From Vitis vinifera (Eukaryota > Streptophyta > Magnoliopsida > Vitales > Vitaceae), in the NCBI RefSeq assembly GCF_030704535.1, contig NC_081811.1:3922501-3986500 (forward strand): a DNA stretch of 64,000 bases, in the 5' to 3' direction. How positions within the stretch are numbered: the stretch's first letter is position 1; each line of letters opens with the position of its first letter. Position numbers and translations under genes: made by a program. The notes beneath the pieces were generated by a model. The model ran no database searches. It was not told where the DNA came from and saw only the letters and a program-made list of their open reading frames with translations. Shown one piece after another: positions 3,501-40,500 of this stretch.

Positions 3501-6500
3501 CCACAGGCAGCTATCATGTTGGCACCAATTGAAAGTTGATGATTCTCATCTACATTCAAAAAGGAGTTACATAAAGAAACTGAGTATATAACAACAAAAG
3601 TTAAAGCTAAATATGGGATAATCAAGGATGAGATGGAACATGGTTATTCTCTAATTTCCCCCATAGAGAAAGCAACAGGTTATAAACCAACCATTGGAAC
3701 AAAGAAAGCTCTTGAGCTGCTCATAGATTGTAAAATACACCTACAAAAACAATAATATGGATTATTGAAAAGAAAACGAAATCTAAAAAATGTTTAGAGA
3801 CAGCATAAAAAAAAATAAAAAAAAGGACAACAACAACAACAACAAAGAGAACAACAATTGAACCATTTAACAAATAAAGAAAGCATTAAGTTCAAACCCA
3901 AAGGTAGCTACTTCAGGAATGGTCAATGATCATAATCTTGGGATACCTTAGAAATTACATCATAGTATCTTCAAACGAGAATATAATGCATAGTTGTTGT
4001 AGAAATTGCACAAATTGCTCCTATAAAAGATATTCAAGTGTAACATAAATTTATGTTACCTAACCAATTCTATTGGTGCATTGAGAAGTAAGTCATTTGA
4101 TTCTCGGTCATTCAACACCATGTCTCTTCAAACTTGTGTAAGATATATATTTCAATGATTTTCAGTTCAATCTAGTCCAAGAAAAGTGGCCTTCCCAAAC
4201 ACCAAAGCCTTTGACTCCCAACAACCCAACACAACGATAAACCCCACATTCCCCCTTCTTTCTTCCTAGTTCTCCTACAAATGGTAACTGCAAATTACAG
4301 TCTTAGGACTTTTGAAGTGGAATCAAACTGTTAGGTGCAAGGCATTGAAGTTAGTTTGGTGTGTTGGTAATCATGTAAAGGTAGAAAAAGGTTTAGGGTT
4401 ATGGAAATGGGTCCAATAAAAAACATAGTGGTTGCTTGTGTGTGAAAATGTACACGGATATGCAAAAAATGAAAGGTGGAGGTGATGGGATTTTGCAAAG
4501 GTGGAGGTGATCGGCTTCTTCAAAGAGGTTTTTGAGAGAAGCTCATTTATGAGGAGTTTGAATACTACTTTTTTGGTCTTGATTCCAAAGGGGGTGCAGA
4601 GGATTTAAAGGATTTTAAACCCATCAATTTGATAGGAGGATTGTATAAGCTTCTAGCCAAAATGTTGGCTAACAGGTTAAAAAGGGTTGTCAGCAAATTA
4701 GTTTCTGATTTTCGGCATGCTTTTGTGGAGGGAAGGCAAATCTTAAATGCGGCTCTAATTGCAAATGAGACTATCGATTCAAGGTTAAAGAACTCCACTC
4801 TCGGTATCATTTGTAAGCTTAATATTGAGATGGCTTATGATCATGTTAATTGGAGTTTTCAATTGGCAGTTATAAAGAAAATGGGTTTTGAGCAAAAGCG
4901 GGAGGGTTGGATGAAGTGGTGCATTTTTTTAGCTTCTTTCTTAGTTTTAGTGAATGGGACCCCTATTGATTTCTTCCAAAGTTCTAGAGGTCTAAGACAA
5001 GGGGGCCCCTTTCTCTCCTTATTTATTTGTTCTTGCAATGGAGGTCTTGAGTCAATTTCTTGTTAAGGCAAGGGAAATAAGTTTCATCTCTGGTTTTTCG
5101 GTGGGTGGGAGGGGTATAATAGGCTAGTTGAGGTGACTCATGTGGTTTGAGGCACTTAAAGGGTTGAAAGTCAATTTTGATAAGAGTGAAATCATCCCAA
5201 TGGGAAGGATTGACAATTTGGAAAAGTTGGCAGTTGAGTTGGGTTGTTGGTTGGAGAATCTTTGATTTACTTATCTAAGCCTTCCTTTGGGAGCCTCGTT
5301 CAAGTCAGAGCCAATGTGGGAAGAGGTGCAAGAGAGAGTGCAAAAAAGACCAGGATTGTGGAAAAGATAATACTTGTTGAAAGAAGGGAGACTCACTCTC
5401 ATTAAAAGCACTTTGTCTAGTCTCCCTATTTATTGCATGTCCCTCATAGTAATTTCCAAGAAGGGTAAGTTTAAGATTTGCAAAATTCCAAAGAGATTTT
5501 TCTTTTGGTAGAAGAGCTTTAGAGAAAAAACTTCATCTAGTGAATTGGGCTAAAGTATGCTTAGACAAAAGGATAAGAGGATTGGGAATTAGGAATCTTA
5601 CTGTTCTTAACAAGGCGCTTCTGGGTAAGTGGGGTTGGAGATTCACTGTGGAAAGAGACTCTTTGTGGAGGCGGGTGATTGTTGGGAAGTTTGAAGAGGA
5701 AGGGGGAGGTTGGACTTCAAGGGTGCTTAGAGAAGGTTATGAAGTTAGATTTTGGAAATCCATCAAGAAAAATTGGGAGGTTTTTCAAATTAGGGTTGGC
5801 TTTATTACCTATCAAAAAAAAAAAAAAAAATAGGGTTGGCTTTATTATTAGGAATGGGAGGAGAATCAAGTTTTGGTTGAACAAATGGTGTAGTGACTCC
5901 CCAATAAAAGGTCTTTCCCCCTTTATTTGTCATCATTGATTCAAAGGATGAGTGGGTGGCAGATATGTGGGAGGACGAAAGGGAACTAGGTCATTGGAGT
6001 CTTTGTTTCTCAAGACAATGCCATGATTGAGAGTTAGAAATGATGGAAGCTTTTTTGCGGAGAATTCAAAAGCATTCAATTAAGCGTGAGATGGAGAATA
6101 GAATGACTTGGTCAGTCTCAAAGAATGAAAAGTTTTCTATTAAGGCATTCGACTTTTTCCTAACTCCAAGGGGTGGAGAGGCTTTTCAAGTTATAGAGGT
6201 TTGGAACTCGTGGGCATCGACGAGATTTGGCTTTTTCACATGGGAAGGATCACGAGGAAGAGTCCTGACTTTAGACTAATTGAAAAGAAGGGGGGTTTCT
6301 CTAGTAAATAGGTTGTTTTTTATGTAAAAGGGAGGAAGAGTCCATCAACTATTTGCTTCTTCATTGTGTCATAACTAATTATCTATGGCAACTAACTTTC
6401 TCATTATTTGGCTTGCAATGGGTGATACATTCAGATTGACATTGCTAAGTTGGAGTGGAGCACAAGTAGGAAAAAACAGAAGAAAGCTTGGTTAATTGCC

Positions 6501-33235: not shown

Positions 33236-36200
33236 TCATAAATTGTCATCGAGGAAGGTGGATAACAATAGTCCCTGCACAAACTCACATTGTTTTGCCT
33301 TCTCCTTTTGGTCCTTGTCTGATAGGGGAGACAGTTGCATGTTTCTGCCACAAAAAAAATACTGTCAGATCGAGTGTGGCAAAAGGGTGAAATTTATTAG
33401 TAATTCCAGAATACGTCTCAGTACATCTATGATCATCTAATTTTGTAAATGCAGAGATGTTAAGTATTAAACTATTTGCACATACTGGGTTACAATGCCA
33501 ATCTGAAGTTAATTTCACAAAGAGGGATTATAAGGTCAACCAAATTTCCAATTCATTCAGAACCAGGTTTCTCAACAGAATGCTTTCCTGCCTCTGGTTT
33601 CTACTTAAATGGTGTTCCAAAGCCATTAGAAATCACATCCAGATAATGGAAGTAACAAAATGCTAAGATTCAAAATCAATATAAGGAAAGAACTTGGTCA
33701 TTATTGCTGCGCTATAGAATAAATTTAGCGTCCAACTTTGGTTGGACGAGCCTCACATGGTTTGACTGGGTTTTGGTCTTCAAAGGTTCAACTGAAAGAT
33801 CTGAACTGGTCAGGTCTTTGGGGTAATCCATTTTAAAAAACCAATTCTTGACATCCTGTCTCACTCAGACTATTAACAAATTAAAGTAAGGTACCTAAAT
33901 GCACCCTAAATACTCAATATACAGCCAAGCAGAACTTGTACTACCAGCATTTAAAAACCAATCCCATGTAAAAATTGAACCTATAATCGTGGAAGACCAA
34001 TACTAAAAAGCATAATCAAACAGTTTACATAGTAAACATGATTAAGTTGTCAGTAGTACCATACAAGGGAACATGAATGATACAAGTTGGTGGACAGTGA
34101 GATTTGGTCATACCTTTCTAACATATTCTCATCTAAGCTTTTCTTTTCGAAGTTTACTTCAGTTGAAGAACTAGGCTGCATGCTTTCAGTGACATCAACC
34201 ATGGGCATGTTGTAAATAAAAGATGACAGCAATGGATCAGGTTCCGTATTGGAGGAAGAAAACACAGAGGAACCCCTAAGAAGAGATTGCAGTTGTCCAT
34301 CCTGCAACTCCTTCTTCAGCCAAGAACGGAGTGAATGGGATTCGCCCTTATGGAGTTTCAATTTTTGCTGAAGGTAACCTCTAGTCAAGGAAATTCAGAG
34401 CAAACCTATAGCTTTTATCACCATATAAAAGTATGAAATAAAAGGATTATTTTAACATGTCATAAAAGGACATGAACAAATAAAGAAACATGGAAATGTA
34501 ATGCACTTGAACAAGAAATAGAGGCTAACGGAATGTTTATGTGAATCAAACTTTAGAAAAAGAAAAAAATGTAAACATGATGGACCAGTCGTACTGATAA
34601 ATTAGCTGATGTTGCAGGGGTCTCCAGAAACTAAGGTCGAATGATTTAAAGAAAAAAAAAGGTATACAAACCCAATCTCTTATTGTTTACCTTTCTAAAT
34701 GGTTTACATGCATAGAAGTTTCCTACAAGCTTTTGTCAATGGATTTTCAAAGAAAACAAGGCAAAAAACTGACAGAGTCAGATTGAGATTTAAAAAGGAG
34801 GGAAGGGGAGGGGGAGGGGGAGGGGGAGGAGGGGGGAAGGAAAACAAACAGATTACAATGAACCATAATTCTAATTTGTTGTTGGTATTCACAAAACCAT
34901 GAGAAATATAAATCACTTTTCACTAATGTGATGTTGATTTAGTTAATTGCACAGACAACTGCATAACCCCATCCACGATTCAGTTCTTTGAGCAGAATTA
35001 ATTTGTGGGCAAACAATTTGCAGGAGCGAATTTCATGTCAATGCTTATGACATAAATTTCAAATAAGAACCAAAAAGCAAACATAAGCAAAAAGGGGGAA
35101 AAAGATTAACTCAATTGAGTAAAAAAGGATATCTTGAAAATATTTCCATGCTGTGTAGTTAAATGTTCAATCATATCAATCCCAACCCTTGTACCACAAA
35201 CAGTACATATCTGCAAACAAAAAGAAGGCAGATTGTGAGCAACATCTATTCAATGAAGGCACAATTAGAGTCCAAAAATCCATGTAAAACTTACTAAACA
35301 AGTATGCTCCTGTTACAGCATAACAGCACAAATTTGGCAATAATCTCATATCCAAATGTTTCTCGTCTTCACTCCCTTGCCCCCACAAGGACAGGCAGAC
35401 CAAAATCCCCAACCCCCACCCTTCAATAAGTTACGAGTTTGCATAATGGTAAAGTAGGACAAAGTATGGAATATAACTTCGGTAAATCTATGAGTACAAG
35501 TGGGGGAACAAAAAACCCGATGATTATGAGCGTTATGATATCTTCAATTAATCATCCATAAAGAGAAAGAGATTAATTTAAAGATGACATGACCCATAAA
35601 ATAAGAGATGAAGTGGAGAGGCAATTCTCCAAAGTGATGTAATTATTGACTGCCTATCAAGTCCAGTGCGAAAAGGTAACCTATCCAACATAGCTGTGCT
35701 TTAAGGCTTTTCTGGATTGAGTTACTCAAGATGATCAACTTTTCTATTTTCCTCTCTCATCATCAAAAGCATACCCCATAAAGAAGCAAAGAAGCCTATC
35801 CAATAATTCTTACCAGATTAATTCCAAAAACTACTTAGTGACCTGGATAAAGCAAATTGAAAGGTTTTATATCATTTATGAACTTTTTGACCCAAGTCAT
35901 AAAAACAAAAAATGGAGACAAAATCATTATCATCCAAAAGTATCCTCATTCCACCAATCAACATAGGCTAATTAGTAATTACAACTACAACAACAACAAC
36001 AAAAAAAAAAAAAACAAGTAATACCCCATAATTTGACTCGGTTGGATGCTCTTCATCAATATGGCAGCACAATCCAACAATATCGAAATCCTCCGAACAA
36101 AATGGGCATGGGAACTCCACCTTTGAATCATCATCTCCTTCTAAGTCATCAAAATCAATGCAGAGATCTGTTCCAAGAATAATCATCATAGATTCACCAC

Positions 36201-36606
36201 TTATTAGCATTAAAAAAGGTAGAATCAAGTCCCACTCCCTTTTAGCTCCACTTTGGTTTCATAGAAAGAGGCGAGAAAAAGTAATAAATGAAAACTTTAA
36301 ATCCCATTTTTTTTTCCTTCCATTCTCTCTCTTTTTCCTTTTTTAATTATTTGAAGTAACAAGAAAACAGGTTTTCTCAGCTGACGCAGCCTTTCTATTT
36401 TGTCTGAAACCACAACAACACAAATACAACAATAAAGAAAATTTCGTTCTGTTTCCTTCTCTTTCCCTTTCCTCTCCCTTTTTTTTTCTCATTAACCAAA
36501 CAGCATACAAAAAACCAATACGAAGCTCACCTGGCCGTGACAGAAGGGCCGATCGATAGCTCTTGGAGGAAGTAGAGAAACCAAAGCTCCATGAATCATC
36601 GTCCAT
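33236..36606 (-). CDS. Di19: Drought-induced 19 (Di19) zinc-finger protein, 5 exons with an AT-AC intron
   Basis: A nuclear protein of the Di19 family, linked to drought, salt and ABA responses, with two atypical C2H2 zinc fingers. Exons: 36531-36606, 36025-36167, 35133-35210, 34114-34373, 33236-33344, giving 666 nt, 221 residues. MDDDSWSFGFS opens the protein. Finger 1 is FPCPFCSEDFDIVGLCCHIDEEH; finger 2 is CTVCGTRVGIDMIEHLTTQH. A basic NIFKLQQKLKLHKGESHS stretch follows. Near the C-terminus, KDQKEKAKQCEFVQGLLLST is the conserved Di19 end. The third intron (34374-35132) begins ATATCCTT and ends AC, with a TTCCTTGAC branch motif. With GT-AG splicing the conserved FK-LQ junction would be lost. 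The start ATG at 36606 matches the family's short N-terminus. The gene is head-to-head with the SYP4 gene. Confidence 0.93.
34374..35132 (-). other. U12-type AT-AC intron of the Di19 gene
   Basis: On the minus strand the intron starts ATATCCTTTTT right after AAG. It ends TTTCCTTGACTAGAGGTTAC right before CTTCAGC. The putative branch adenosine is 11 nt before the intron end. All three signals match the minor (U12) spliceosome consensus, and splicing here joins the conserved NIFK and LQQK in phase 0. Confidence 0.88.
34797..34840 (+). repeat. G-rich tract with quadruplex potential
   Basis: Several runs of four to six G separated by single A give a sequence able to form G-quadruplexes on the plus strand, which is the template strand for the Di19 gene. 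It lies inside the AT-AC intron. The pre-mRNA would carry the complementary C-rich tract. Confidence 0.75.
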
Positions 36607-37562: not shown

Positions 37563-40500
37563 ATGGCCACGATGAATCGAACCGTAGTGTTCAGAAAGCA
37601 CAGAGATGCTGTGAACAGCGTTCGAGCTCCGGCGGGGGTCAGCTCCGGCGGTGCCGTGATCGAAATGGCGAGTACTTCGCTTTTTCACTCGAATCGGTCT
37701 TCGTATACTCCTCTTAGCACTGAGGATCCAGGTCCTTCTAGGTAACGCTTCTTTTTCTTTCTCTTTCTCTCTCCTTTTGACGAGAAAAGAAAACGAATCC
37801 ACTCCTATTATGGAAATTCCAAGATTTGATTAATTTTCTTAGGCATCCTAAGCCAAGAAAAGGAGAACTACATATAAATTTTGTAAGATTTGACTGTATG
37901 TAATATCAAACCGTTCTAGCATTTTTCTAGCTTCTGTGGAAAATGGAATTAGGAAATTTGTGTCTCTGTAGAGAGAATGAGAACTGTGCTGAGATAAATT
38001 TATGCAGTTGCAGGGTGTTAGTGTGATTCACTGGTATGTTTCAACTTGTTATTGATTAACTCATTAGGTCACCAATCAACGGACGTGTCTAGGAGTTGAA
38101 TCTAGAACTTTTGGAGTTGAATAGATGGTGAGTCGGTGACATAATAAAGTGGATTCAAGCTGGTAAATGGGTTTTTAATTTGATATTTGACAAGGGGACT
38201 TATACTTGAACTTTTGAATCTCTTGTCCAGTTTTTGGTGAAAGAAGTATGGTGCCCTGCCTAAAATGGAATAGGGATTAGAAAATGGAAATCTGGACTCT
38301 TGTTGTGTTTTACATTTTCAAGAAATTGAATGTATTAATGTGCAACACAACATGGAATATATGTTCAGTGAAAAAAGTATGTGCTCCTCCTACAGTTAGA
38401 ATAGGAAGTGAAAAACGGATATTAGGGCTTTTTCTTGTGTTTGTACTTTCGGGGAATTGGATATGCTAATGCAATACGCAACATGGAATATATGTTTCTT
38501 TAATTTGATTATTTGGATTCTGATTGTAGGAAATGTTTGGATTCAACTAAATATGTTTGGTCGGAATTCAAAGATAATGGATACTGAATGGGAAATGTAG
38601 GGGTTTTAGGTGGAAATAGTTGGTTGCTACAGGTGAAAATTTGCGGGATGCTAAAGAGTCTGAAAATGCAATTCTCAAGAGGATGAAGGAGGGAAAGATT
38701 CTTAAGAACATTTCATTTAATGCTGAACAAATGAGTTGGATACTGATATCAGCCATGCCCACCAATTAAATGCTTACAAATGGTTCAAGTGTCAAGTACT
38801 CAAGTTATGCTTTACTAATGAAAATATTCTTTGAATGCTGAATATATTTTCCTTGCTGCAGTAAGGATGCATTTACAGTGGGTCTACCTCCAGCTTGGGT
38901 AGATGTTTCTGAAGAAGTAGCTGCAAATATACAACGTTCTAGGGTAAAAATGGCTGAGTTAGTCAAGGCTCAGGCCAAAGCTTTAATGCCCTCCTTTGAA
39001 GATGGCAAAGAAGATCAACGTAAGATTGAGTCTCTCACCCAAGAAATTACAGATCTACTGAAGAGGTCAGAAAAGAGATTACAAAAACTTTCTGCAAGGG
39101 GGCCTTCTGAGGATTCTAATGTTAGGAAAAATGTACAGGTTGGTCTCGATAGTCATTGCACTTTCTATTATAAAAAATTATATGGTTTGCATGTAATTTT
39201 GATGTATGCCCATGATTTACTCTAGTCTTGCCTTATCTTTATTCTTATCACACACAGCCTCAGCTTTTGGCTGCCTGTCTGGATATTGTGCATCTTTCAT
39301 TAGTCTAACATTTTAGTACTACTGAGTTGATATCTTTCAACAGGAATAGGATATAAAAGAAATCTATACATCTTATGGTGATGGGTGCTCCTGAATTCAC
39401 TGCTATAGTGCAGTTCCATTTGTTTCACAGTTTCACTTTTGTACTTTTGTAGAAAAAGATCTCAAACATTTTTTACTTCTTTTAATTCATTGACAAGAAA
39501 TAGTTCATCAGTGTTTTATGTTCTCTTTAGAGGTCTTTTAATGTGGATTGTATTTTCTTTTCTTAAATTTTCCCTTTTCCAACAGCGTTCTCTTGCTACA
39601 GACCTTCAGAACCTCTCATTGGAGCTCAGAAAGAGACAGTCAACATATTTGAAGCGTTTGAGGCAGCAAAAAGAGGTTTGCATTTTTTCTAAATATATCC
39701 TTGTTTCTTATATAATAAATAAATATGAATTGTAAGTTCCAAGGAAAGTACGATGTCAATAGATATTGATAGCTAATCTTGCATGCTTAAGATGACTTTC
39801 CACTCCAAAGTTATGCACATTCTTCTCTTATTGACTGGTTTTACATTGTTGATTTTCATTATAGTCCATGGCCTGTTTCTTGTTGAGATTTCATTTTTTA
39901 TTTATTTTGGTTACTGCAGGGACATGACGGGGTTGACTTGGAGATGAACTTGAATGAAAATAAATTCAGATTGGATGATGATGAGTTTGGTGACATGGTA
40001 TGCTGTTCTTTTTCTCTTTTATCCTTTTAACTTCTGGATTGTTGGCCTAACATTAAGCCAGAAAAGAAAAAGAATTAGGTTCTCCTGAGGAAATGAAAGC
40101 TCAGAAAATTGCATGTCTTGTTTTAGAACTTATGTTTTCGTTTAAACAGATACTTAATGCTCTAATAAATCAGGTGTTAAATATAAATATTTTTGGGCAA
40201 TTATAGTTTATTATTTAACATACTTTGGTGCTGGTTGGAAACCCTTTTATTCTGCTAAGTTTGGACCTATTTACCACCTTGTTATTTTGTTTTTCTTGAC
40301 CCTCCTTCCAGTATTATTACTTGCTTATTATATGCTTAAATCAATCCAGGGTTTTAATGAGCATCAAATGGCCAAGCTAAAGAAGAGTGAGAAATTCACA
40401 GCTGAAAGGGAGAAAGAGATCAGACAGGTAATTGGAGGCACTCCACTTAGTACAACCAATTCCAAATTCTGTTCTTCTTGTTTTCCTTTTTAAATAAAAC

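Follow-up and report, generated by a model that had tools for sequence, protein, structure and literature searches.

A predicted U12-type AT-AC intron in a grapevine Di19 gene and the same intron position in its paralogues

The window, the whole stretch of 64,000 nucleotides of Vitis vinifera DNA that was analysed, contains on the minus strand a Di19 zinc-finger gene with five exons (Table 1). Introns 1, 2 and 4 of the gene model start with GT and end with AG, and the joined exons encode a protein of 221 residues with two domains: zf-Di19 at residues 43-95 (79.4 bits, positions 2-54 of the 54 in the Pfam model) and Di19_C at residues 116-215 (123.7 bits, positions 2-101 of 102), both above the curated Pfam cut-offs of 27.5 and 29 bits, respectively. 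The number of exons and introns is the same as in upland cotton, where all 16 Di19 genes show five exons and four introns in the available text of PMC9686973. An Rfam search of the whole window gave no match at the gathering scores. Upstream of the Di19 gene there is a divergent exon (37563-37741, plus strand), which starts with MATMNRTVVFRKHRDAV. This start resembles that of the plant SYP4-type syntaxins, and a Pfam search with 60 residues of the exon gave no match.

Table 1. Features of the Di19 gene in the window and of the corresponding intron in its paralogues
Feature	Position	Strand	Detail
Di19 exon 1	36531..36606	-	ATG at 36606; gene model with GT-AG intron 1
Di19 exon 2	36025..36167	-	zf-Di19 first half; zf-Di19 match in whole-genome search
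Di19 exon 3	35133..35210	-	zf-Di19 second half; ends ...NIFK, phase 0
Intron 3, predicted U12-type AT-AC, 759 nt	34374..35132	-	motifs, phase 0, gene model
U12-type 5' splice site ATATCCTT	35125..35132	-	exact; complementary AAAGGA in three strong U6atac matches
U12-type branch site TTCCTTGAC	34384..34392	-	branch A 34385; complementary AAGGAA in U12 snRNA match L030
Terminal AC of intron 3	34374..34375	-	branch A 11 nt before intron end
CTTCAG, first six coding bases of exon 4 (LQ)	34368..34373	-	latent AG acceptor; corresponding site is the acceptor in the C17 model
Di19 exon 4	34114..34373	-	basic segment and most of Di19_C
Di19 exon 5	33236..33344	-	Di19_C end; stop TGA
C7 Di19 (gene in window)			branch site TTCCTTGAC; AT-AC intron 759 nt
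C14 Di19			branch site TTACTTAAC; AT-AC intron 734 nt
C5 Di19			branch site TTCCTTGAC; AT-AC intron 1315 nt
C19 Di19			branch site TTCCTTAAC; AT-AC intron 360 nt
C10 Di19 (L012)			branch site TCCCTTAAC; AT-AC intron 124 nt
C17 Di19 intron, GT-AG, 79 nt	L013 (G000:C17:11345000-11354900), 4592-4670		GTATTATT...TTTGCAG; gene model

The U12-type AT-AC class of introns is marked by ATATCCTT as the 5' splice site and, close to the 3' end, by the branch-site consensus TTCCTTRAY. Intron 3 shows this arrangement: exon 3 ends on the minus strand with ...AATATTTTCAAG (AAG) at 35133, the donor follows directly, and after the branch site TTCCTTGAC come TAGAGGTTAC to 34374 and then exon 4, which begins with CTTCAGCAA at 34373. 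Donor, branch site and terminal AC thus stand at a junction that keeps the frame, and at the same position as in the relatives of the gene described below. The initial annotation had placed an AT-AC intron between 34374 and 35132, and these limits are exact, on a strand that it did not give; the donor, the branch motif, the terminal AC and the 11 nt between the branch A and the intron end are likewise borne out at their exact positions. The junction falls after residue 99, between zf-Di19 and Di19_C, and for this reason the domain scores do not test where exactly the exons are joined; the exact junction was checked instead by the alignment of the paralogues. If the intron is retained, a stop is reached after eight intron codons, giving a product of 107 residues that keeps zf-Di19 and is without Di19_C. 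Inside the intron, at 34800-34840, the plus strand contains a G-rich repeat of seven copies of the unit GGGAGG, C-rich in the Di19 transcript, which is perhaps a site of variable length.

Neither the donor nor the branch motif is remarkable alone in the window. ATATCCTT is present 10 times, against 4.68 expected (10 is reached in four of 100 shuffles), and TTCCTTRAC-N8-12-AC once, against 0.38 expected (reached in 30 of 100 shuffles). A chance match of the motifs in an ordinary intron is favoured by these counts, since each motif on its own is expected in a window of such size, but the motifs at fixed intron ends argue against it. Among 100,000 Markov sequences made for intron 3, the eight-base donor at its fixed end has a P of about 5e-5 (five hits, a rough value), and the terminal AC preceded by a branch site (one mismatch allowed, with the A 9-13 nt before the intron end) has a P of about 5e-4; their product, which joins two rough estimates, has an order of magnitude of 1e-8. 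The pattern recurs in four paralogous introns, and this comparison refutes a coincidence, the probability of which we regard as negligible.

The Di19 paralogues were searched with the zf-Di19 profile in a genome of 495.6 Mb in 21 contigs. At least ten matches in at least six genes were found, and all six genes were examined, with gene models built from the sequence alone; the count covers genes with a zf-Di19 match and does not include C19:23467934, where a Di19_C match stays under the cut-off. In five of the six genes ATATCCTT follows immediately on the ..FK codon, always at that codon boundary, and these five introns end in AC with the A of a branch site (no more than one mismatch) 11 nt from the end. 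In blastn the interiors of the five introns show short and weak similarities only, the best with E 0.024 and several at the conserved ends, and the alignment of the five joined proteins has no gap across the junction. In these gene models the AT-AC intron is thus common to the Di19 family of this genome (5/6 genes). In each of the six genes, a transcript that retains the intron at this position meets a stop between 3 and 33 codons into it. The five AT-AC genes have CAG as the second codon of exon 4, with LQ, MQ or VQ encoded there, and the motif xT(T/G)CAG is present at this site in all six.

According to the initial annotation, only this splice joins the conserved blocks in phase. The AT-AC splice does join them in phase 0; its exclusiveness does not hold, since two other splices, GT +22/AG -5 and AT-AG +6, are also in frame. 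U2-type options were enumerated in the five AT-AC genes with GT donors allowed anywhere between the beginning of exon 3 and the first stop in the intron and AG acceptors up to 40 nt from the AC, and the donors were scored on a consensus of nine positions. In the C7 gene, the only GT-AG pair in these ranges that preserves exon 3 is GT +22/AG -5, which is in frame and free of stops; it inserts nine residues, ISFFTQLSY, and its donor, TGA|GTTAAT, matches four of the nine positions. The C14 gene has a comparable option, GT +22/AG -8, with an insert of ten residues (ISFFHCIESY) and a donor of 5/9, as well as further in-frame pairs. In C10 a U2-type donor, CTT|GTAAAT, is found at +8 (6/9), and its in-frame pairings alter the residues round the junction. 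No GT-AG pair that keeps exon 3 whole was found in C5 and C19 within the ranges searched. That the real intron is U2-type and runs from GT +22 to the AG 5 nt before the AC, adding ISFFTQLSY to the protein, is consistent with the open frame in C7 and with the similar pair in C14, but the donors of both are weak, C5 and C19 offer no such pair in those ranges, the only downstream donor of C10 gives other residues, and the paired U12 motifs with their constant spacing of 11 nt in five of the six genes would be left unexplained. This reading is very improbable; its options being weak and variable between genes, it was set aside as weak, not as impossible.

The other in-frame splice, AT-AG with the acceptor 6 nt downstream, is available in all five AT-AC genes and drops two residues. 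Partial use of this AG (CTTCAG in the C7 gene) with the AT donor would produce isoforms with and without LQ. The motif shared by the six genes and its role as the acceptor in the C17 model agree with such use, as do the AT-AG minor introns that occur in human (PMC8280824), but the two residues are coding (LQ, MQ or VQ) in five gene models, each of which has its AC at the same 11 nt from the branch A. We consider these isoforms unlikely in the AT-AC genes.

Intron 3 of the five-exon Di19 gene is best read as a U12-type AT-AC intron that is removed by the minor spliceosome, with a probability of roughly 0.96, and the evidence for it comprises the motifs, the phase, the presence of both domains, the conservation in the paralogues and the finding, in the genome, of most minor-splicing components looked for. 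The rarity that the initial annotation ascribed to AT-AC introns also agrees with the literature, in which they amount to about 0.06% of plant introns (PMC6310983), yet to 26% of the U12 introns of Arabidopsis (PMC7367187).

Components of the minor spliceosome were found by searching the genome. U6atac shows eight matches over the cut-off: three strong ones, in which a stretch complementary to the donor is present as GAAAGGAGA or its start GAAAGGAGAA, and five weaker ones (L025-L029, 43-52 bits), which are perhaps pseudogenes. U12 and U11 show two matches each, and the branch site has its complement in GTAAGGAA of the U12 copy L030. The search for U4atac with RF00618 gave no match among the 49 of 29,786 candidates that were scored, and none in 14 control genomes either, so that an absence of U4atac is not implied. 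A CCDC84 gene (CENATAC family) is present with three exon matches, and the DIM1 family shows five matches. C5 has three of them, a strong one, a shorter one and one interrupted by a single TGA, and C7 has two that are weak, of which one also contains a TGA. The C5 match with one internal TGA (L036, G000:C5:6107369-6107659) is about 18-24 kb from the best C5 DIM1 matches and is perhaps a decayed copy.

Judging by the motifs, the complementary snRNA stretches and what is established about minor splicing, ATATCCTT would be recognised by U11 and U6atac, U12 would pair with TTCCTTGAC, and the 3' cut would fall at the AC that lies 11 nt past the branch A. A transcript from which the intron is not removed would give the 107-residue product, with the zinc fingers only, or would be exposed to nonsense-mediated decay. 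Splicing of the intron should therefore depend on minor-spliceosome capacity. Human CENATAC and Arabidopsis DROL1 are required for AT-AN or AT-AC minor introns (PMC8280824, PMC11039992). The A-type (AT-AN) introns that need CENATAC and TXNL4B/DROL1 in these reports resemble grapevine intron 3 in the AT donor, the U12 branch site and the terminal AC, and the grapevine genome likewise has a CCDC84/CENATAC gene and DIM1-family loci. The AT-AC-specific factors CENATAC and DROL1 are probably needed for intron 3.

The C17 gene is the one whose model has a GT-AG intron at this position, and the branch-site criteria applied above (one mismatch, A 9-13 nt before the end) found no U12 branch site in its 79 nt. 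Its acceptor is located 6 nt downstream of the AC position, on the CAG that is coding in the other five Di19 genes, and the C17 protein is therefore two residues shorter there. The gap of two residues is exactly at the LQ position in a local alignment, and three columns earlier in a faster first alignment. In a tree of the six genes, C17, which has a long branch, falls together with C19 and C10, and C7, C5 and C14 stand separately. Since this tree has no outgroup, the direction of the change in C17 is one that we infer: AT-AC would be ancestral if the root is between the two groups, and the ancestral state would be undecided if the root is on the C17 branch. A tentative reading, to which we give somewhat less than even odds, is that C17 underwent a donor mutation and a 6-nt slide of its acceptor to the CAG, so that an AT-AC U12 intron may have become a GT-AG U2 intron without a change of AC to AG and with the loss of two residues; the latent CAG may already see low-level use in the AT-AC genes, where LQ next to the basic segment would be present in some isoforms and missing from others. 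Conversion of U12 to U2 introns is known, with GT-AG U12 introns as the starting point more often than AT-AC ones (PMC2831892), and its routes include subtype switching from AT-AC to GT-AG and, rarely, a change from AT-AC U12 to AT-AC U2 (PMC2831892, PMC7367187). The Di19 family resembles these converted introns in that one paralogue has GT-AG where five have U12 AT-AC, and C17 differs from them in its acceptor, 6 nt downstream on what is a codon in the other genes. The available parts of both papers contain no mention of an acceptor slide.

Arabidopsis Di19-2 is treated as a U12-intron gene (PMC4892727, PMC3422263, PMC5853960), its splicing is defective in u11-48k plants (PMC4892727), and Di19 is among the genes that need U11/U12-31K (PMC4892727, PMC3422263). 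The grapevine Di19 intron is therefore of an already known kind: Di19-2 belongs to the same family and has been assayed in minor-spliceosome mutants. The parts available of the three Arabidopsis papers do not state the position and the terminal dinucleotides of the Di19-2 intron, and in these parts the term AT-AC is only in cited titles of one; the Arabidopsis intron is likely AT-AC and at the same position. All the literature found on Di19 and U12 or minor splicing concerns Arabidopsis minor-spliceosome genes, one paper with rice as well, and in the open-licence literature no link of At1g02750 with U12 and no comparison of the Di19 intron across all paralogues of one genome was found. The cross-species evidence is that of published papers and the paralogue evidence that of one genome. 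The family-wide AT-AC comparison and the possible conversion of C17 by an acceptor slide would be the mildly new parts.

The initial annotation also proposed that the intron could couple the output of a stress-response regulator to the minor spliceosome; as a stress switch, stress would shift minor-spliceosome activity and retention would tune Di19 output. The early stops on retention in the six genes fit this idea, and so do several reports: At-Di19-5 is listed among genes with alternative splicing coupled to nonsense-mediated decay (PMC3591102), Di19 is among the conserved alternatively spliced genes of cereals (PMC4578763), human A-type minor introns show relatively high basal retention (PMC8280824), and Di19-2 is misspliced in u11-48k plants, as cited above. 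The published evidence is mixed, however, and the Di19 passages of PMC3591102 and PMC4578763 name no particular intron. A switch of this kind is unlikely.

The Di19 AT-AC intron is a sound find and not a surprising one, as the family is known for U12-type introns in thale cress. Gene finders limited to GT-AG introns would misbuild the Di19 model, and the AT-AC junction supports the correct one. With five AT-AC genes and one GT-AG gene, the six paralogues represent a small natural series for the retention and conversion of U12 introns, which also suits tests of CENATAC and DROL1 dependence in a stress-response family.
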